A stretch of 64,000 nucleotides of DNA from Rudaea sp. 3F27F6 (GTDB taxonomy: Bacteria > Pseudomonadota > Gammaproteobacteria > Xanthomonadales > Rhodanobacteraceae). This document shows positions 24,488 to 38,705 of this stretch, piece after piece (within the stretch, counting starts at the first letter, position 1; every line of letters begins with the position of its first letter). The stretch covers positions 124,001 through 188,000 of the forward strand of contig NZ_SCNG01000005.1 of assembly GCF_005503555.1 (NCBI RefSeq). Reading direction: 5' to 3'. Position numbers and translations under genes: made by a program. The notes under the pieces were generated by a model. It searched no databases. It saw nothing but the letters and a program-made list of their open reading frames with translations, and had not been told where the DNA came from.

Positions 24488-24519
24488 TTGACTCTGGACC
24501 GTGATCCAGACTCTAGACT
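24488..24519 (+). promoter_or_regulatory. MerR-type promoter with 20-bp spacer and operator dyad
   Basis: TTGACT at 24488-24493 and TAGACT at 24514-24519 are separated by 20 bp. Inside the spacer sits the dyad TCTGGA-N6-TCCAGA (24493-24510). The over-long spacer holding the dyad is the known arrangement for MerR/CueR activation by DNA twisting. It precedes the regulator and copA. Confidence 0.8.
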
Positions 24520-24540
24520 TTGCGTCCAGGAGGATTTCCC

Positions 24541-24945
24541 ATGTCGAATCTCAGTATCGGCCAATTGGCCCAGCGCACCGGCGTCGCCATCGACACCGTG
24601 CGCTACTACGAACGCAACGGGCTGCTGCAACCCGCCGGACGACTCGCTTCGGGCTATCGCCGCTATGGCGACGCGGAGTTGAAGCGGTTGCGTTTCATCC
24701 GCCGCGCCAAGGCGCTCGGCTTCAGCCTCGAAGACGTGCGCGCGCTGCTGACGCTCAGCGAGGAACGCAACGTCGCCAAGGTCAAACGCGCGGCGCAGGC
24801 CAAGCTCGCCGACATCGAAGCGCGCATCGCCGAACTCGAACGCGTGCGCGGCGGCTTGCGCACGCTGATCGCGGCCTGCCCGGGCCACGGGCGCGCCGAA
24901 GCCTGCCCGATCCTCAACGCACTGACCGACGAGGAGACGCACTGA
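24541..24945 (+). CDS. MerR family copper-responsive regulator (CueR-like)
   Basis: 134 residues, with AGGAGG upstream. Winged helix N-terminus: [25 protein letters not shown] and [32 protein letters not shown]. Long dimerisation helix 80-115. The metal loop [14 protein letters not shown] supplies two cysteines eight residues apart, as in CueR-like Cu(I)/Ag(I) sensors. Its own promoter carries the dyad described at 24488-24519, so it probably autoregulates and drives copA. Its stop overlaps the copA start (TGATG). Confidence 0.88.
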
Positions 24946-27386
24946 TGTCCACGTCGAATCAAGAACATCACAAACACGATCACTCTATGCACGGCCACGA
25001 ACATCGCGCGCACGACCACGCGGGCAAGGAGATGCCGGTGAAGGCGAGTTGCTGCAGTACGTCCAAACCTGCGCATTGCGATTCGCCCGCGCCGATAGAC
25101 ACGTCTGCAGCGGCGATCGATCCGGTCTGTGGAATGACGGTGAAGCCGGGCACGCCGCATCGCGCTGAACATGCGGGGCAGGAGTATCTGTTCTGCTCGG
25201 CCGGCTGCCGCACGAAGTTTCTCGGCAATCCGGCGCACTATCTTGCGCCGAAAAAACCGGCCATAGCCGCGGCGCCAGCCGTTGCGGGCGCGAAATACAC
25301 CTGTCCGATGCATCCGGAAATCGTGCGCGACGCCCCCGGCACCTGCCCGATCTGCGGCATGGCGCTGGAGCCGATGATGCCGAGCCTCGACGACGGCGAG
25401 AATCCCGAGCTGACCGATTTTCGCCGCCGCTTTCTGCTGACCTTGCCGCTGTCGCTCGCGGTGTTTGCGCTGGCGATGTTCGGCCATGCTTTCTCCGATT
25501 TGTCGACGGCCGCACGCACGTGGCTCGAACTCGTGCTGGCCGTGCCCGTCGTGTTCTGGGCCGGCTGGCCGTTTCTCGAACGCTGGGCGCAGTCGATCGC
25601 CAACCGCAGCCCGAACATGTGGACCCTGATCGGCACGGGCGTGCTCGCCGCGTTCGGCTACAGCGTTGTCGCGACCGTGGCGCCGCAGGTCTTCCCGGAT
25701 TCGCTTCGCGAACATGGGCGCATCGGCGTCTACTTCGAGGCGGCCGCCGTGATCGTCTCGCTGACCTTGCTCGGGCAGATTCTCGAATTGCGCGCACGCT
25801 CGAGCACCTCGGCTGCGATCAAGTCTCTGCTCGGGCTCGCGCCGAAAACCGCGCGCCGCCTGCGCGATGACGGCAACGAAGACGACGTGCCGCTCGATGA
25901 AGTGCGCGTCGGCGACCGCCTGCGCGTGCGGCCCGGCGAGAAGGTACCGGTCGATGCGGTCGTGCTCGAAGGACGTTCGAGCGTGGACGAATCGATGCTG
26001 ACCGGAGAACCCATGCCGGTCGAAAAGAACGTTGGCGACAAAGTGATCGGCGCGACACTCAACGGCACCGGCAGCCTCGTGGTTCGCGCGGAAAAGATCG
26101 GCGCGGAAACCGCGCTCGCGCAGATCGTCGGCCTCGTCGCGCAGGCGCAGCGCACGCGCGCGCCGATGCAGAGACTGGCCGACAAGGTCAGCGTCTGGTT
26201 CGTGCTCGGCGTGCTTGCCGTCGCGGTCGCGGCGTTCTTGGTCTGGGGCTTGTTCGGCCCCGAGCCGTCATGGACTTACGCGATCGTCAACGCGGTCGCC
26301 GTGCTGATCATCGCCTGTCCGTGTGCGCTTGGCCTCGCCACGCCGATGACGGTCATGGTCGCGAGCGGACGCGCCGCGCATGCCGGTGTGCTGTTCCGCG
26401 ACGCCGAGGCGATCGAACGCCTGCGCACGATCGATACGCTGATCGTCGACAAGACCGGCACGTTGACCGAGGGTAAGCCGGCGTTCGGCGAGGTCGTTGC
26501 TGCGGCGGGCGCGGAGGCCGACGAAGTGCTGCGTCTTGCGGCCAGCCTAGACCTCGGCAGCGAGCATCCGCTCGCCGCCGCGATCGTTGCCGAAGCGCGG
26601 CGACGCAACTTGCCGCTCGATGCGGCAGCCGACTTCTCGTCGGCGACCGGCAGCGGCGTGCGCGGCCGCATCCGCATGCAGCAGGTGGCGCTCGGCAACG
26701 CGGCGCTGATGAAGGAAGTCGGTGCCGATGTCGGTGCGGTCGGCGCCGATGCCGAACGTCTGCGCAAGCAAGGTGCCAGCGTGGTCTTTCTCGCCGCCGA
26801 CGGCCGTGCGCTCGGCTTGATCGCGGTCAGCGATCCGATCAAGGACTCGACACCCGAGGCCGTCGCCGCGCTGCACGCGGCCGGCCTGCGCATCGTCATG
26901 GCGAGCGGCGACAGCGTGACCACGGCGCAGGCTGTGGCCGCGCGCCTCGGCCTCGACGAAGTGCACGGTGGAATGCGTCCGCAGGACAAGGCCGCGCTCG
27001 TCGCCACGCTCAAGGCGCAGGGCCGCCGCGTGGCGATGGCCGGCGACGGCATCAACGACGCGCCCGCGCTTGCTGCCGCCGACGTCGGCATCGCCATGGG
27101 CACCGGCACGGACGTTGCCATGTCGAGCGCGCAAGTGACCCTGGTCAAGGGCGATTTGCGCGGCGTCGCGCGTGCGATTGCGATCTCGCAGGGCGCGGTC
27201 GCGAATATGCGCCAGAACCTCGGCCTAGCTTTTATCTACAACGCGCTCGGCGTGCCGCTCGCGGCGGGCGTGCTGTATCCGTTCACCGGCCTGCTGCTGA
27301 GTCCGATGGTCGCCGCACTGGCGATGAGCCTGTCGTCGGTCTCGGTAATCGCCAATGCGCTGCGCCTGCGCACGGCGCGGGCGTGA
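24945..27386 (+). CDS. copA: Copper-translocating P1B-type ATPase
   Basis: 813 residues. The His-rich N-terminus ([18 protein letters not shown]) is followed by a YHS domain (DPVCGMTV, about 59-105) and a heavy-metal-binding domain (YTCPMHPEI...[10 protein letters not shown], about 118-144), in place of the usual ferredoxin-like CxxC domains. Membrane part with the transport motif CPC in [12 protein letters not shown] (about 456). Actuator TGEPMPV, phosphorylation DKTGTLTEG (about 501), SEHPLAAAI with the HP motif, and [10 protein letters not shown] hinge (about 702). Exports Cu(I) across the inner membrane using ATP. Translationally coupled to its regulator. Confidence 0.95.
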
Positions 27387-28206: not shown

Positions 28207-28338
28207 CCTTCTCCCATCGGGAGAAGGTGGCGCGGCAGCGCCGGATGAGGGAAGAGCGTGTCATTTCCTCAGTCCGTTGCATCGTGCGAGGTTCTGCCCT
28301 CATCCGCCCTTCGGGCACCTTCTCCCGAGGGGAGAAGG
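28207..28338. repeat. 132-bp inverted pair of two-hairpin repeats (endonuclease-less element)
   Basis: Two copies of one repeat face each other. Each has a 21-bp palindrome (CCTTCTCCC, three bases, GGGAGAAGG), a TG, a second hairpin, then GGATGAGGG. Left copy: palindrome 28207-28227, second hairpin GGCGC-GGCA-GCGCC, motif 28243-28251. Right copy reads on the other strand: palindrome 28318-28338, second hairpin 28306-28316 (GCCC-GAA-GGGC), motif 28297-28305. The palindromes face outward, as in the endonuclease element at 34264-34790. It looks like a MITE-type derivative. Confidence 0.8.
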
Positions 28339-28376
28339 GAAGGCAGAGGCAGCTATCGAGTTCGGGTGCTAGCTTC

Positions 28377-28397
28377 TCTTCTCCCATTAGGAGAAGG
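28377..28397. repeat. Solo copy of the 21-bp palindrome
   Basis: A near copy of the outer palindrome (TCTTCTCCC, three bases, AGGAGAAGG) without second hairpin or GGATGAGGG. It lies 38 bp from the inverted pair and may be a decayed end. Confidence 0.6.
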
Positions 28398-28451
28398 GAA
28401 GAAAAAGCAGTTACGGATCGAGCTTGATGCCCGGCGCAGGAAAGATCTTTT

Positions 28452-32766: not shown

Positions 32767-35076
32767 CTACGCGGAGATGCGGGCCGGCAGTGCATGGCCC
32801 GGCTTCCAGTCCGTTGCGGCGAGCTGATCGAGCAGCGCGACCACATCGGCGCGGCCTTGCTTGTCGTGGATCGGCAGAACGAGCAGGTCGCCGTCGCGCG
32901 CCCATTCGAGCACGATGCGCGCGGCTTCGATTTCCTCGCGGCAGGCGAGGATCGCACTCGCGGCGATGCCATTGCCCAGCAACTCGTCGTGCAACAGCGC
33001 GACGACTTCGCCCGAACTGCGTCCACGCGCGAAGCTGACGAGTTCCTTGAGCACGACAAGATCGGGGTGTCGGCGTGCGGTGACGGCCGCAAGCTCGCGG
33101 ATATCGGCGTCTTCGCGATTGCCGGCCTGGCCGAGCACGACCGCGAGGCGACCGGCGGGAGACAACGCGCGTGCGACGTCGAGCAAACCTTGCAGGCCCT
33201 CGGGATTGTGCGCGTAGTCGACGAGCACGGTCGCGGTGCCGAAAGTCCAGCGCATCAGCCGGCCCGGATTGTCGCTGTTGCTCGCGCCGAACCGTGCGAA
33301 GACCTGCGCGATGAGCGTGTGGTCGAGGCCGAGCGCGTATGCGACGAGGGCGGCACCGGCGAGATTGGCGATGTTGTACTTTGCCGCACCGTTCGCGCTG
33401 AGCGGCATGTCGGTGATGCGGCCGAGCGATTGGTCGATGCCGTCTGTATGCAGGATCAACTCGCCATTGCGCGCGCCGCAGGTCGCACCGCCTTGCTCGC
33501 GGTGAGCGATCAGCAGGGGATGGTCGGCGTTCAACGCAAACCAGACGATATGTTTTGTTTTCCCCCGAATCTCGAACGCCGCATCGTGGCTTCTGCGCAC
33601 GAGCACGGCGTCGTCGGCGTTCAGCACAAGCATGCCGTCTTCGCCTAGCGCGTGCGCGACGACGAGCTTGGCGTCGGCGAGATCGTCGAGCGAGTGCACA
33701 CCGTACTCGCCGAAATGATCCGCACTGATATTGGTGACGATCGCCGCCTGCGCGCATTCGACCGCGAGCCCGCGGCGCAGGATTCCGCCACGCGCAGTTT
33801 CGAGCACAGCGGCATCGACGCGCGTATCGCGCAACGCTGTGCGCGCGCCGGCGGGGCCGGAGTAGTCTCCGCCCGCGATGGTTTCGCCGCCAATGACGAC
33901 GCCGTCAGTGCTGCTCAATGCGGTGCGCCGGCCCGCGCGTTCGCTGATCGCGGCGACAAGGCGCGTTGTCGTCGTCTTGCCGTTCGAGCCGGTGACGAGC
34001 GCGACCGGAATCGCATGCAGCGCATTCCAGTCGATTGAGCGAGGCGAGGGTAGGGCGTCGAGCAGCCACGTGTGCGAGCCTTTGCCTTCGCCAAGCGTCA
34101 GCTCGCTATCGTCGAGCAGAACAGGGAGCGCGCGCTGGTGCGCTTCGTCGAGCAGCGCGACGAGATTGGGGCGTCTCTCTGCCGCCGCAGCGTGCTTCAA
34201 TGTCTGCAGCGCGAGTTCTTCGTCCCAGATCGCTGGGTAGGCAGGTGCGTGGAAATAATCTTCCCTTCTCCCCTCGGGAGAAGGTGCCCCGTCTTTGATA
34301 AAAGACGGGGCGGATGAGGGAGAAGCGCCGCGATGCAGAGCGACGCGGGTGAGTTCTTCGATGCGATTCCAAATATCCGTCAGCACGGTTTCCGTGCTCG
34401 TCATTACCTCGTTGTTCCAGTAGCGCAGAATTTCGATGCCGCGCTCGCCGAGAAACGCCGCGCGTTGCGTATCGTGTTTCAAGCCGGATGGCGCATTGTG
34501 CTGGCTTCCGTCGAGTTCGATCGCGAGGCCCAATTCATGGCAGTAGAAATCGAGAATATAAGGACCGACCGCCTGCTGCCGGCGAAATTTTTGACCGTGC
34601 AATCGCCTATCGCGAACGAAAGACCAGATCAATCGTTCGGGATCGGTCAAGCTTTTGCGAAGCGCGCGGATGAAGGTCAGAGCTTCTTCATCGAACGGGA
34701 GCTTCTCGCCAATGGAATCGGTCGCTGCAGGAGCGGTGGGTTCTTCCCTCATCCGGCGCTGCCGCGCCACCTTCTCCCGAGGGGAGAAGGACAGCAACGC
34801 TCGCTCCAATGCCCATTCATTGACTTCGGTTGCCGTCAGCAACTGATCGATCGGGGCGGCGATCGCAAGCGCGCCGCGGCCATGTTCGATGCGCGCGGCA
34901 ATCGGCGCTGATGGCCAGCCGAGCTCCTCGCGCAGATGTTCGACATTGGCGCGCCAACGCGCGATCGTGTCGTCGTCGAGCGCGATGCCGGGCGACGTTT
35001 CGAGCACGGCGCCGGGCACGGAGAAGTAGAGATTGGCGCCGGTCAGGCGGCGCGAATCCTCGAACGGAAGCGGCAT
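32767..35076 (-). CDS. Mur ligase-type cyanophycin synthetase paralogue carrying an in-frame DUF559 insertion
   Basis: 769 residues. Residues 1-94 (PFEDSRRLTGANLYFSVPGAVLE) and 273-769 belong to the short Mur-ligase homologue found beside cphA. The latter holds P-loop VTGSNGKTTTTRL (about 361), LETARGGILRRGLA, NISADHFGEYGVHSLDDLADAK, NADDAVLV, and DYAHNPEGLQGLLDVARAL. Between them residues about 95-272 come from an inserted element whose repeats are translated as FSPREKVARQRRMREE and APSPEGRRED. They enclose a DUF559 nuclease-like domain (about 124-240). No stop or frameshift results. Whether the synthetase still folds is unknown. It lies 25 bp after cphA and is probably co-transcribed. Confidence 0.85.
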   Translation of the reverse strand: MPLPFEDSRRLTGANLYFSVPGAVLETSPGIALDDDTIARWRANVEHLREELGWPSAPIAARIEHGRGALAIAAPIDQLLTATEVNEWALERALLSFSPREKVARQRRMREEPTAPAATDSIGEKLPFDEEALTFIRALRKSLTDPERLIWSFVRDRRLHGQKFRRQQAVGPYILDFYCHELGLAIELDGSQHNAPSGLKHDTQRAAFLGERGIEILRYWNNEVMTSTETVLTDIWNRIEELTRVALHRGASPSSAPSFIKDGAPSPEGRREDYFHAPAYPAIWDEELALQTLKHAAAAERRPNLVALLDEAHQRALPVLLDDSELTLGEGKGSHTWLLDALPSPRSIDWNALHAIPVALVTGSNGKTTTTRLVAAISERAGRRTALSSTDGVVIGGETIAGGDYSGPAGARTALRDTRVDAAVLETARGGILRRGLAVECAQAAIVTNISADHFGEYGVHSLDDLADAKLVVAHALGEDGMLVLNADDAVLVRRSHDAAFEIRGKTKHIVWFALNADHPLLIAHREQGGATCGARNGELILHTDGIDQSLGRITDMPLSANGAAKYNIANLAGAALVAYALGLDHTLIAQVFARFGASNSDNPGRLMRWTFGTATVLVDYAHNPEGLQGLLDVARALSPAGRLAVVLGQAGNREDADIRELAAVTARRHPDLVVLKELVSFARGRSSGEVVALLHDELLGNGIAASAILACREEIEAARIVLEWARDGDLLVLPIHDKQGRADVVALLDQLAATDWKPGHALPARISA
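34264..34320 (+). repeat. Left end repeat of the DUF559 element
   Basis: Palindrome 34264-34284 (CCTTCTCCC, CTC, GGGAGAAGG), TG, second hairpin 34286-34311 with an 11-bp stem (GCCCCGTCTTT against AAAGACGGGGC, loop GATA), then GGATGAGGG (34312-34320). The stem sequence differs fully from the other copies while pairing is kept. Confidence 0.8.
34746..34790 (-). repeat. Right end repeat of the DUF559 element
   Basis: Read on the minus strand: palindrome 34770-34790, a base pair TG step, second hairpin 34755-34768 (GGCGC-GGCA-GCGCC), GGATGAGGG at 34746-34754. The ATG in that motif is the likely start of the internal ORF. Confidence 0.8.
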
Positions 35077-35101: not shown

Positions 35102-37894
35102 TCAGTCTTCGTTCTCGCGCGCGAAGCGGATGCCGCGTTCGTCGCGAATCAGACCGTCCATTTCGACCACGGCGCGCTCCTCGACGACGGGCTCGATCGC
35201 CGCGACCGGTTCGACGCGCTTGATCGCAGGCGCGGGCGTGCCTTCGGGATGGAACTTGGTGATCTGCTTCCACGAGCGCGCGAGCGCGTCGGCGAAGACC
35301 AGGAGCAAATCGCCCGGCTGCCCCATCTTGAGCGCCGCGTCGATCGCCTGCTGCTCGTCCGGGATGATGGTGATCGCGGACGCCGGCACGCCTTTCTCCT
35401 GCAGCGCTTTGGCGATAATGCGCGGCACTTCGTCGCCGTCGCGGCCGCGCAGCGTGTCGTCGCGGCGGCATATGTAATGGTCGAACTTGCCGGCGACGAC
35501 GTTGGCGATTTCGCGCAGGTCCTCGTCGCGGCGATCGCCCGGACCGGCGACGACGATAATGCGGCGTCCCGCCACGTCGAGGCGCCCGGCGAGATCAGCC
35601 ATGACGCCGACCGCATGCGCGTTGTGGCCGTAGTCCATGAGCACCTTGAACGGATGCTCGTTGAACACGTTCATGCGCCCGGGCGCCTGGAAGAAGGTCG
35701 TGTCGAACGTGCGCAGGCCCTGGCGGATCGCGTCGAGCTTGATGCCGAGGGCGAAGGCGAGGCTTGCCGCGACCATCGCGTTTTGTACGTTGTGCAGTGC
35801 GCGGCCTTCGAGCGTGGCCGGAATCAGGTGCGTCCACATCAGCGGGATGTGGCTGCCCTTGTCGTAGAGCGTGATCATCGAGCCATTGACGCCGGCTTCG
35901 AGCGCGCAGGCGCGGCCGCCCGCGCGCACATGCTCGCGCACGAGCGCGTGCGACGGATTCATCGTCACGTAGCAGATGACTTTCGCCTCTGTGTAGGCCG
36001 ACATCTTGAGCACGTTCGGATCGTCGGCATTGAGCACGGCGCAGTCCTTGGCGACTTCGATCGGGATGCGCTTCACTTCGGCGAGTTGTTCGAGCGTGTC
36101 GATGCCTTTCAGGCCAAGATGGTCGCTCTGCACGTTGAGCACGGCGGCGACGTTGACCTCGGGCACGCCCATGCCGGCACGCAGCAGACCGCCGCGCGCG
36201 ACTTCGAGCACGGCGATGTCGATGTTCGGATCGGCCAGCACCATGCGCGTCGACACCGGGCCGGTCATGTCGCCTTCGACCGTGCGCTGGCCGTCGATGT
36301 AGACGCCGTCGGTCGTGGTCAGGCCGGGCGTGTAGCCGGCCATCTTGGCGATGTGCGCGAGCATGCGCGAGGTCGTGGTCTTGCCGTTGGTGCCGGTGAT
36401 CGCAGCGACCGGTACGCGCGACGGCGTGCCGGGCGGAAACAGCATGTCGACGACCGGGCCAGCGGCGTCGCGCGGCGTGCCTTCGCTCGGGCTCACGTGC
36501 ATGCGGAAGCCCGGCGCCGCATTGATCTCGCAGATGCCGCCGCCGACGCTTTTGTAGCTTTCAGCAATGTTCGGCGAAAGGAAATCCACACCGCCGACGT
36601 CGAGCCCGATCGCGCGCACGGCGCGCACGGCCATGTCGCGGTTGTCGGGATGGATGATGTCGGTGACGTCGGTCGCGGTGCCGCCCGTGGAAAGATTCGC
36701 GGTCTTGCGCAACGGCACGACCTGATCCTGCTTCGGCACCGAATCCACGGTCAGATCCTGGCCTTCGAGCATAAGGATCGCTTCGCGGTCAAGGTTGATG
36801 CGGGTCAGCACCTTCTCGTGGCCGACGCCGCGGCGCGGATCGGCGTTGACCTCGTCGACCAGTTGCGCGACCGTGCGCTTGCCGTCGCCGACGACGTGGC
36901 CCGGCGTGCGCTTGGTCGCGGCGACGAGTTCGCCGTTGACCACGAGCAGGCGATGGTCGTCGCCGGCGAGATAGGTCTCGACGATGACCGAGTTGGAATG
37001 TTCCTGCGCGGCCTTGAAGCCGGCGATCACGTCTTCGTCCTTGGTGATCGCGATCGTGATGCCGCGGCCGTGGTTGCCGTTGTACGGCTTGGTCACGACC
37101 GGGCCGCCGAGCCGGCGCGCGGCGCGCAGGGCGGCTTCCTCGGTGCGCACGAGTTCCTGCTTCGGCACTGGAAGTCCGAGAGAAGCAAGAATCTTGTTCG
37201 TCTCTTCCTTGTCGCTGGCGAGTTCGACTGCGATATGCGGCGTGCGTCCCGTGACCGTGGCCTGAATGCGCTGCTGGTACTTGCCGTGGCCGAGCTGCAC
37301 GAGCGATTGCTCGTTCATGCGCAGCCACGGAATGCCGCGCTGCTCGGCGGCGCGCACGAGCGATGCGGTCGAAGGTCCGAGCGCGCGGCGCTGTGCGTAG
37401 CGGATGAACTGGTCGCGCGCTTCGGCGAAATTCCAGCCTTCGGGCACGCTGTCCTTCGGCCGCAGGTCTTCCGGCAACAGCGAGGCGAGCAGGCGTAGGG
37501 CGAGATCGCCCGCGGCAATGCCTTCTTCGCGCTGCGCGTATTCGTAGACGACGGTGTACACGCCCGGGCGCGCGTCGCTGATGCTGCGCGTCTTGCCGAA
37601 GGTGACGTCTTCGCCGGCGACGTTCTGCAGTTCGATCGCGACGTGTTCGAGTACGTGGCCGAGCCAGGTGCCTTCGCCTTCGCGCATGCGGCGGATAAAG
37701 CCGCCCGGCTCGCGATACGAGCAACCGTGTTCCTGCAAACCTGGCAGTGCTTCGACGAGTCCATCGATGAATTTTTCGCCGAGCTTGGCCGTCGGCCAGT
37801 TTTCCAGCTCGCCGAGGTCTAGTTCGAGCTTGATGACCGGAAAGTGCGCGTACAGCGAAGGGCCGACGTAGACGGAACGATCGAGTATGCGCAT
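35102..37894 (-). CDS. cphA: Cyanophycin synthetase
   Basis: 930 residues from the ATG at 37892-37894, with GGGGAGG upstream. N-terminal domain with SVYVGPSLYAHFPVIKLELDLGELENWPT and GHVLEHVAIELQ, then an ATP-grasp domain (about 220-480, including VTKPYNGNHGRGITI and GDDHRLLVVNGELVAATKR). A Mur-ligase domain follows from about 495 (AAITGTNGKTTTSRML, VLEVARGGLLRAGMG, NVQSDHLGLKGIDTLEQLAEVKRI) with MDYGHNAHAVGVMADLAGRL near the end. It polymerises Asp backbone with Arg side chains from ATP, without a ribosome. Middle gene of the leftward cph operon. Confidence 0.95.
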   Translation of the reverse strand: MRILDRSVYVGPSLYAHFPVIKLELDLGELENWPTAKLGEKFIDGLVEALPGLQEHGCSYREPGGFIRRMREGEGTWLGHVLEHVAIELQNVAGEDVTFGKTRSISDARPGVYTVVYEYAQREEGIAAGDLALRLLASLLPEDLRPKDSVPEGWNFAEARDQFIRYAQRRALGPSTASLVRAAEQRGIPWLRMNEQSLVQLGHGKYQQRIQATVTGRTPHIAVELASDKEETNKILASLGLPVPKQELVRTEEAALRAARRLGGPVVTKPYNGNHGRGITIAITKDEDVIAGFKAAQEHSNSVIVETYLAGDDHRLLVVNGELVAATKRTPGHVVGDGKRTVAQLVDEVNADPRRGVGHEKVLTRINLDREAILMLEGQDLTVDSVPKQDQVVPLRKTANLSTGGTATDVTDIIHPDNRDMAVRAVRAIGLDVGGVDFLSPNIAESYKSVGGGICEINAAPGFRMHVSPSEGTPRDAAGPVVDMLFPPGTPSRVPVAAITGTNGKTTTSRMLAHIAKMAGYTPGLTTTDGVYIDGQRTVEGDMTGPVSTRMVLADPNIDIAVLEVARGGLLRAGMGVPEVNVAAVLNVQSDHLGLKGIDTLEQLAEVKRIPIEVAKDCAVLNADDPNVLKMSAYTEAKVICYVTMNPSHALVREHVRAGGRACALEAGVNGSMITLYDKGSHIPLMWTHLIPATLEGRALHNVQNAMVAASLAFALGIKLDAIRQGLRTFDTTFFQAPGRMNVFNEHPFKVLMDYGHNAHAVGVMADLAGRLDVAGRRIIVVAGPGDRRDEDLREIANVVAGKFDHYICRRDDTLRGRDGDEVPRIIAKALQEKGVPASAITIIPDEQQAIDAALKMGQPGDLLLVFADALARSWKQITKFHPEGTPAPAIKRVEPVAAIEPVVEERAVVEMDGLIRDERGIRFARENED

Positions 37895-37982
37895 GCAAAC
37901 CTCCCCAGTTTCAGCGTTCATTCCTGCGGAAGCGGGACACGCCCGCCGCCGATGCACCACACGCCGAAACGGCGTGAAACCG

Positions 37983-38705
37983 CTATGCGCCGAGCCCGCC
38001 GGCGATATGGAAAGCGACGTTTGCAAGACCGTGACCGAGGATCGGTACAACGAGGCTGCCGGTCTTGAAACGAAGCCAACCGCCGGGAATGCTGCCTATG
38101 AACGGAAACAACGCGGACATCAGATCGAAGCCGAATTTTCCGTCCGAATAGTTCAAGCCGTGCCAGACGCCGAATACGATGGCTGTAGAGAGAATAACCG
38201 CCCACGGCGTTCCGTCAACCGCCGCCTTGCGCTGCACGAGGCCGAGCAGCAGCGCCGGCACGATGCCCCGATAGACGAGTTCTTCCGATATGCCGGGCAT
38301 GACTGCCTGGAAGGCGAGGGTTTCCGCATCGGGCACTCCGGGCTTGAACAGTAGGCCGAGACAGGTGCCCCAGACGATGAACAGCAGGACTGCAATCGCA
38401 CCGATTTTGAGATGACTCTGCTCGAGCGTCAGCCCCACGGCCTGCGGCGACAGTTTGAACGCGGTAATAGCGAGCAAAGAGAGGACAATGCTGTATATCT
38501 TGCCGGTCCAGTTCCAGTGAGCGCCGAAGAGAACAAGACTGTGCGCGACCGTGGGCAAACCGGTGATGAAGTCGTCGAGAGCGAGATAAGCCGCGGCGAG
38601 CAAAGCGAAGCCGATCAGAATGCGTTTGTCCGCCGCGCGGGCACACAGAAAGACGACGCCCGCGATCAACGCGAACGAAAGCGAAAATATCAGGGCGTTG
38701 GTCAA
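37983..38705 (-). CDS. CPBP family intramembrane protease
   Basis: 240 residues from a TTG (38703-38705) that overlaps the cphB stop, so translation is probably coupled. Six to eight membrane helices. CPBP (Abi/type II CAAX protease) motifs: MPGISEELVYRGIVPALLL (EExxxR), FGVWHGLNY (conserved His) and a late HGLANVAFHIAGG (HxxxN). Such glutamic-type proteases cleave membrane proteins or handle small peptides. Its place between cyanophycinase and cyanophycin synthetase is unusual and suggests a role tied to the polymer or its dipeptides, which is inference. Confidence 0.8.
   Translation of the reverse strand: MTNALIFSLSFALIAGVVFLCARAADKRILIGFALLAAAYLALDDFITGLPTVAHSLVLFGAHWNWTGKIYSIVLSLLAITAFKLSPQAVGLTLEQSHLKIGAIAVLLFIVWGTCLGLLFKPGVPDAETLAFQAVMPGISEELVYRGIVPALLLGLVQRKAAVDGTPWAVILSTAIVFGVWHGLNYSDGKFGFDLMSALFPFIGSIPGGWLRFKTGSLVVPILGHGLANVAFHIAGGLGA

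Follow-up and report, generated by a model that had tools for sequence, protein, structure and literature searches.

The window analysed here is a 64,000-nucleotide stretch of the Rudaea sp. 3F27F6 genome. On its minus strand lies the host gene, a cyanophycin-synthetase-like Mur ligase of 769 aa with its insert (32767-35076), and a second, longer reading frame of the cyanophycin-synthetase-like kind is found upstream of it (35102-38050, minus strand). Cyanophycin synthetase was the top NCBIfam match of the host gene, but under that model's cut-off. The insert is an in-frame DUF559 element of 527 bp on the same strand (34264-34790; protein residues about 95-272). Its Vsr-like DUF559 nuclease domain (34360-34677, minus strand; residues 134-239, Pfam E 5.3e-31) retains the conserved columns, whose role we take to be catalytic, and is followed by Mur_ligase_M and Mur_ligase_C. 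The domain order is N-terminal part, DUF559, Mur ligase middle and Mur ligase C-terminal. The original prediction had described an in-frame DUF559 insert with inverted repeat ends, a complete-looking nuclease domain and no transposase. All of this was borne out. The frame runs unbroken through the insert in the window's list of open reading frames and in translation, the inverted repeat (34264-34291 and 34763-34790) is 28 nt long and 93% complementary, and the Pfam match bears out the domain. Pfam matches within the insert are to DUF559-type families only, with no transposase.

Each end of the insert is a composite unit. End unit 1 (34264-34320, plus strand) is made of a palindrome (34264-34284), a second hairpin (34286-34311) and the tail GGATGAGGG (34312-34320). 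End unit 2 is inverted (34746-34790, minus strand), with the tail at 34746-34754, the second hairpin at 34755-34768 and the palindrome at 34770-34790. In both units the palindrome has 9-bp stems and the tail is directed inward. The palindrome loop has 3 bases and was missed by a pattern with a 4-base loop. The second hairpins of the two units differ in sequence and keep the structure. Hairpin folding of the two units gave z values of -8.1 and -3.9, and none of 200 shuffles folded equally well. Repeat ends with no DUF559 between them, which the original prediction had proposed to look for, occur in the window itself, as a MITE/REPIN-like inverted pair of the same unit kind (28207-28338, no strand assigned; palindromes 28207-28227 and 28318-28338). 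A further, imperfect palindrome, read by eye from the sequence, adjoins this pair (28373-28401, no strand assigned). Also in the window, 24501-27386 was read as a heavy-metal P-type ATPase, whose called reading frame has a long N-terminal extension.

The predicted structure of the DUF559 domain (pLDDT 83) has as its closest solved fold 3hrl, a putative endonuclease-like Neisseria protein. The second-closest is the catalytic domain of the homing endonuclease I-Bth0305I (PDB 3r3p, E 4.6e-5), and Vsr comes after it (E 0.015), in keeping with the earlier statement that DUF559 resembles Vsr nucleases. When the full-length protein was modelled with AlphaFold, the host came out confidently, the block means over the nuclease were about 48-74, and the linkers at residues 96-125 and 249-277 were predicted to be disordered.

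The insert in relatives of the host gene

Homologues of the host gene were collected at 24 loci, five from the same genus, 17 aligned from other genera, and two (G057 and G119) left unaligned for want of a match to the N-terminal motif. DUF559 at this position in every homologue, the outcome that the original prediction had named as counting against it, was not observed. The 17 homologues aligned from other genera all show a short linker only, with neither insert nor palindrome. Within the genus, G004 carries the insert at the same site as the window, and in G001, G003 and G005 the nuclease is missing, with a palindrome remnant left exactly there, degenerate in G005. The uninterrupted relatives that had been anticipated reveal the insertion point, but the three nuclease-less alleles of the same genus depart from that expectation in keeping the remnant. 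Judged by these alignments, the 527-bp element is an insertion into the Mur ligase gene. No target-site duplication was seen at the window site, where the same-genus alleles keep palindrome remnants. A DUF559 element was also found in the same linker of the same cphA-like gene in a Lysobacter MAG (L228), and its nuclease groups with the window nuclease on the DUF559 tree (support 100/81). The cphA-like protein of G119 (L091) has no insert at the window site and, further on, an in-frame tandem repeat array without a nuclease.

Between the window genome (G000) and G004, the NG86 dN/dS was 0.185 for the insert and 0.353 and 0.297 for the host parts; YN00 gave a value for the host C part only, 0.179. 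Constraint on the insert is thus similar to that on the host and not clearly stronger. A chance open frame as the origin of the insert was rejected, as this constraint and the same-genus relatives count against it. The dS of the nuclease core was 2.47 (bootstrap 1.2 to saturated) against 0.64 (0.55-0.76) for the host, and the third-position divergence of the core was reached by none of 461 host stretches of equal length. Since the core dS exceeds that of the host, the inserts of G000 and G004 may have arrived separately. The GC3 of the insert is lower (0.65-0.69 vs 0.79), so the excess of dS may be partly compositional, which weakens the argument. Insert identity was 63.0% for G000-G004, 59.9% for G004-Lysobacter and 53.4% for G000-Lysobacter; the corresponding host identities were 73.4%, 55.5% and 56.5%. 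Of these pairs, the first two point to separate arrivals at a single site, but G000-Lysobacter does not.

The end repeats and DUF559 genes in other genomes

A close variant of the end unit (at most 3 mismatches) occurs 22 times in the window genome. Its reversed control has no match. The insert ends are members of a genome-wide REP-like repeat, an addition to the earlier account. Holder et al. (2015) described the BoxC/PIT/G/C-rich intrastrand triplex motif (TM), with 23 copies in E. coli K-12 by their Table 1, a plan in which CCCTCTCCC, a loop and GGGAGAGGG precede a GGGTGAGGG block, inverted pairs in some cases, and repeats in more than 260 genomes (PMC4666352). By their own account, the authors never saw mobility functions near the E. 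coli TM sites (PMC4666352). The repeats have been recognized in E. coli since the 1990s, with no source known for them. Compared with the entries of that Table 1, the insert ends have the same unit plan and a close sequence. The pyrimidine block, the complementary purine block and the third purine-rich block are all present in the window unit, which differs from the tabulated units in an extra second hairpin, a computed fold, before the third block. Whereas BoxC/PIT/TM are known from that description as orphan repeats, in the insert a nuclease gene lies between units of this type. No link of DUF559 or Vsr to these repeats was found in the titles and abstract openings listed from the open-licence literature.

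E. coli K-12 itself has a DUF559 gene, ycjD (L366 1908-2261; Pfam E 1.3e-49). It ends 168 bp from motif no. 9 of the published TM list (PMC4666352), a full TM unit on its 3' side. A half unit at the 3' end of the gene was read as decayed, and no TM unit was seen on the other side. E. coli is missing from the matching control genomes listed by the family search, although this E value comes from the identical Pfam model. No target-site duplication was found at the three E. coli intergenic sites compared, where the alleles are not clean.

DUF559 genes elsewhere were examined through the best inverted match between their 350-bp flanks. The family set held 140 loci (12 of the genus, 28 of the 30 best listed after removal of two duplicates, and 100 more, with the weakest and partial matches left out), one of which was dropped for a short flank. 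Among the 139 listed loci that were tested, 114 scored above the highest of 134 far-flank controls and 121 above the controls' 95th percentile; 25 did not exceed the highest control score. In a second control, with flanks paired across loci, a score of 50 was reached by 44 of 414 pairs against 89 of the 139 real pairs, and the cross-locus pairs that reach it indicate that the loci share the repeat. The median element with inverted ends of this kind spans 463 bp, and the median arm 44 nt. The second set was drawn from named genomes as the best 80 of 570 relatives of a query headed by the window domain; four lay too near contig ends, and the 76 loci used include L227, which is the G004 locus counted again. 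Here 46/76 loci scored at least 38 against 1/189 controls, and the 30 under 38 include some Acinetobacter. Within the best 80 of 570, the taxa comprise Proteobacteria, Chloroflexi, Verrucomicrobia, Nitrospirae, Melainabacteria and others, and many of the ends read CCCTCTCCC..GGGAGAGGG..GGGTGAGGG. From both sets, DUF559 loci generally sit within inverted pairs, and the repeat ends that the original prediction expected beside other DUF559 genes were found at most of the loci listed.

Grouped by site, two of them without one flank, the 139 listed family loci fall into 44 sites, the largest with 37. Sites are often common to many species, so that a good part of the copies seem old and stable. An exact homing site was not found, and several sites recur in many species as if inherited. 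One site is common to DUF559 elements of several genera (L031, L035, L147, L155, L161, L166, L167, L184, L210 and L218) and adjoins genes read as epmA/genX-like (Pfam tRNA-synt_2 at L155 and L161) and ligA-like.

The number of repeats in a genome follows the nuclease. In the family survey of 147 genomes the median palindrome count was 37.5 in the 92 genomes that have DUF559 and 0 in the 55 that lack it, and at least five palindromes were present in 81/92 and 13/55, respectively. The Spearman coefficient was 0.72, a value reached by none of 2000 label shuffles within genera, and kinship was handled by this shuffle alone. In the phylum survey of 299 genomes (three shared with the family survey), at least five palindromes were found in 71/90 genomes with DUF559 and 12/209 without, with a Spearman coefficient of 0.765; 19 of the 90 have fewer than five palindromes of this class and 12 of those have none. 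A genome was taken to have DUF559 at E below 1e-8, and those with weak matches only (six in the family survey, 26 in the phylum survey) were counted as without. Each DUF559 gene contributes about two units itself. Y1_Tnp, the family that holds the RAYTs, is not related to the palindrome count (rho 0.04, 147 genomes), and Y1 transposases were therefore ruled out as the factor setting repeat number. At one DUF559 site in genus g13, the match is single and full-length in 16 of 20 genomes and split in four. The four split alleles proved to be decayed DUF559 copies rather than empty sites. Among the genomes with a decayed allele G121 has 10 palindromes, but G131 has 67; the nine g13 genomes with DUF559 in the family survey have 18-148.

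Copies within other reading frames

The element lies inside a longer reading frame at 22 of 196 loci on the DUF559 tree. The tree was built from few alignment columns with the 139 family loci and 57 of the 80 named loci, and it is biased to repeat-bearing loci because those 57 were picked mostly for their repeats. By Pfam and NCBIfam the hosts are cphA-like (3), MmeI-type (3), HsdM (3), Eco57I-like methylase (2) and MetG (2), with one each of HsdS, type ISP, ValS, PriA, HrpA, MetH, BioA, IspE and an M14 peptidase. Ten of the 22 are restriction-modification genes. Host sequence was recognized on both sides of the insert at 16 of the 22 loci, from Pfam, PDB or homologue alignment, and these cover MetG, ValS, PriA, HrpA, MetH, BioA, HsdM, MmeI and others. 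At the remaining six (L024, L229, L231, L232, L258 and L299) the family match is one-sided. When the missing half was queried again, L229, L232, L258 and L299 gave no match and L024 weak unrelated matches only; the frame of L231 runs off the contig. Loci whose frame continues on one side only were left out of the in-frame hosts. L155 and L161 were also rejected as in-frame hosts, their DUF559 being at the epmA-like shared site with an upstream frame that looks like chance.

By the profiles and structures the junctions are tidy. At L240 the N6_Mtase profile is matched from 2 to 276 before the insert and from 275 to 311 after it, and at L208 Type_ISP_C from 1 to 185 and from 182 to 342. The BioA insert falls between residues 268 and 270 of 3dod, that of MetG between residues 562 and 575 of 6wq6, and that of ValS between 590 and 603 of 1gax. 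In L240, L208 and BioA the element parts the host domains without loss. Pfam scans of the host proteins gave no intein Hint splicing domain. Three hosts come from non-MAG records, namely MetH of Stagnimonas aquatica and HsdM of Mariprofundus erugo and of Methylomonas, and the insertion site of the two HsdM genes is the same by eye. The in-frame state changes 11 times on the tree, against 21.2 in shuffles (0/500 equally low). Of the 22 in-frame loci, 19 fall together in a modestly supported group (91/78) of 42 rows, and the other three are in a Melainabacteria group. Two smaller observations belong here. The MmeI-like gene of L024 apparently has, from about 113, a repeat pair with no nuclease upstream of its DUF559 element and within the same open frame. 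In L206 (1393-3186) a DUF559 element is immediately upstream of, and in frame with, a homogentisate dioxygenase, a possible N-terminal extension.

A proposed nuclease partner of the repeats

Then, how would such an element be kept and spread? We consider it probable that the insert is a transposase-free mobile element driven by its nuclease, of which the short repeat pairs are the non-autonomous offspring; the mobilisation is what we infer. The element would consist of two inverted BoxC/PIT/TM-like units that enclose the gene of a Vsr-like DUF559 nuclease, and the nuclease would act in trans to maintain and spread the repeats, as their cause and not as a companion. It would most likely nick or cut DNA at or near a target that it chooses, and repair would then copy in the whole element or a short internally deleted pair, in the fashion of homing endonuclease genes. 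The short pairs would be to DUF559 what REPINs are to RAYT transposases. The FYC-motif subfamily is the one most often seen inside genes, probably because copies in which ends and nuclease make up a single stop-free frame can survive in tolerant loops of conserved proteins as translated extra domains.

Nuclease-driven spread with no transposase, as proposed originally, fits the tracking of repeats with DUF559 and not with Y1, the predicted homing-endonuclease-like fold and the linker shared with Lysobacter. Several observations stand against it. The palindrome remnants would also fit a simple loss of an ancestral element, and between the window genome and Lysobacter the insert is not more alike (53.4% identity) than the host (56.5%). 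There are also exceptions to the association of DUF559 and palindromes (12/209 and 19/90) and loci without strong inverted ends (25/139 and 30/76). We lean slightly towards a wider proposal, in which the autonomous partners hitherto missing for the BoxC/PIT/TM repeats are DUF559 genes enclosed by inverted TM units. These genes would form a bacteria-wide, transposase-free mobile class, driven by a Vsr-like nuclease, that seeds genomes with short pairs and also enters conserved genes by in-frame homing, as a translated extra domain.

The same nuclease could be a cellular enzyme of repair or processing that repeat-rich genomes need, in Vsr-like mismatch repair or in trimming hairpins or triplexes, with the repeats spreading otherwise and the gene lying passively between two of them. 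The Vsr-like predicted fold agrees with such a role, as do the many sites common to several genera, which are expected of a useful gene. Caulobacter VsrA, the DUF559 protein for which published genetics were found, is reported to be responsible for a DNA damage response when a methylase is absent, and its authors read it as a mismatch-repair enzyme (PMC12907096). These genetics support nuclease activity but favour the repair explanation. However, a repair role alone leaves unexplained why 114 of 139 listed DUF559 genes lie inside an inverted pair and why copies occur in unrelated host genes of different phyla. Spread by other means is also at odds with the Y1 transposases, which do not track the repeats (rho 0.04), and with the report that no mobility functions were ever found near E. 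coli TM sites (PMC4666352). We judge this explanation unlikely.

Repeat copies could also serve as landing pads, the cassette moving only by homologous recombination between them with the nuclease as cargo. Palindrome remnants at the nuclease-less sites of the genus, the many repeat copies within the same genomes, and the lack of a target-site duplication, both at the window site and in the E. coli alleles compared, would all be expected. But recombination between arms so short (median 44 nt) and diverged should be inefficient, and in both surveys the repeats track the nuclease in number, which makes cargo status quite improbable. That the host enzymes acquired a nuclease domain for their own use, most plausibly in the restriction-modification hosts, would account for the 10 of 22 in-frame hosts of that kind and for the constraint on the window insert. 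MetG, ValS, BioA and MetH have no evident need of a nuclease, however, and the translated ends are members of a repeat family. The domain is absent from all 17 aligned cphA-like homologues of other genera, and the linkers of the window protein are predicted to be disordered. A functional fusion is accordingly very hard to credit.

A mobile element driven by its nuclease, if this preferred reading holds, shares features with several known systems. As in REPIN-RAYT, described by Bertels and Rainey (2011, PMC3116915) and Park et al. (2021, PMC8049555), there are inverted doublets of palindromic units in many copies per genome, a dedicated gene and often vertical inheritance. The REPIN partner is an HUH/Y1 tyrosine transposase, whereas the partner here would be a Vsr-like nuclease, and REPIN units carry a GTAG (or CGTC) tag (PMC3733652) that the window unit, ending in GGATGAGGG, does not have. 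The likeness to I-Bth0305I, a homing endonuclease of Vsr-like fold, lies in the predicted fold of the catalytic domain and in the occupancy of the same site in related hosts. Unlike I-Bth0305I-type homing genes, the DUF559 element is bounded by inverted repeats, with no intein domain seen, and unlike homing endonuclease genes the insert stays in the protein as far as can be read from the sequence. Inverted ends and short internally deleted forms are shared with insertion sequences and MITEs, but the DUF559 element has no transposase and no target-site duplication was found at the sites compared. Rickettsia palindromic elements are short selfish repeats that lie in frame, and the persistence of a palindromic repeat in frame inside genes is common to both; the Rickettsia elements are not known to carry a nuclease gene.

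If true, the proposal may explain how a very widespread orphan bacterial repeat family is kept and spread. It names a candidate enzyme for the TM/BoxC/PIT repeats, one of which, ycjD, is in E. coli K-12, and it offers a likely role for DUF559, a Pfam family named as of unknown function. The in-frame copies also show mobile DNA persisting within genes such as metG, valS and priA, apparently through translation.

As a separate observation, a TM pair is present between alx and sstT in E. coli K-12, and two strains have other DNA there (L375 340-900, L376 340-980).
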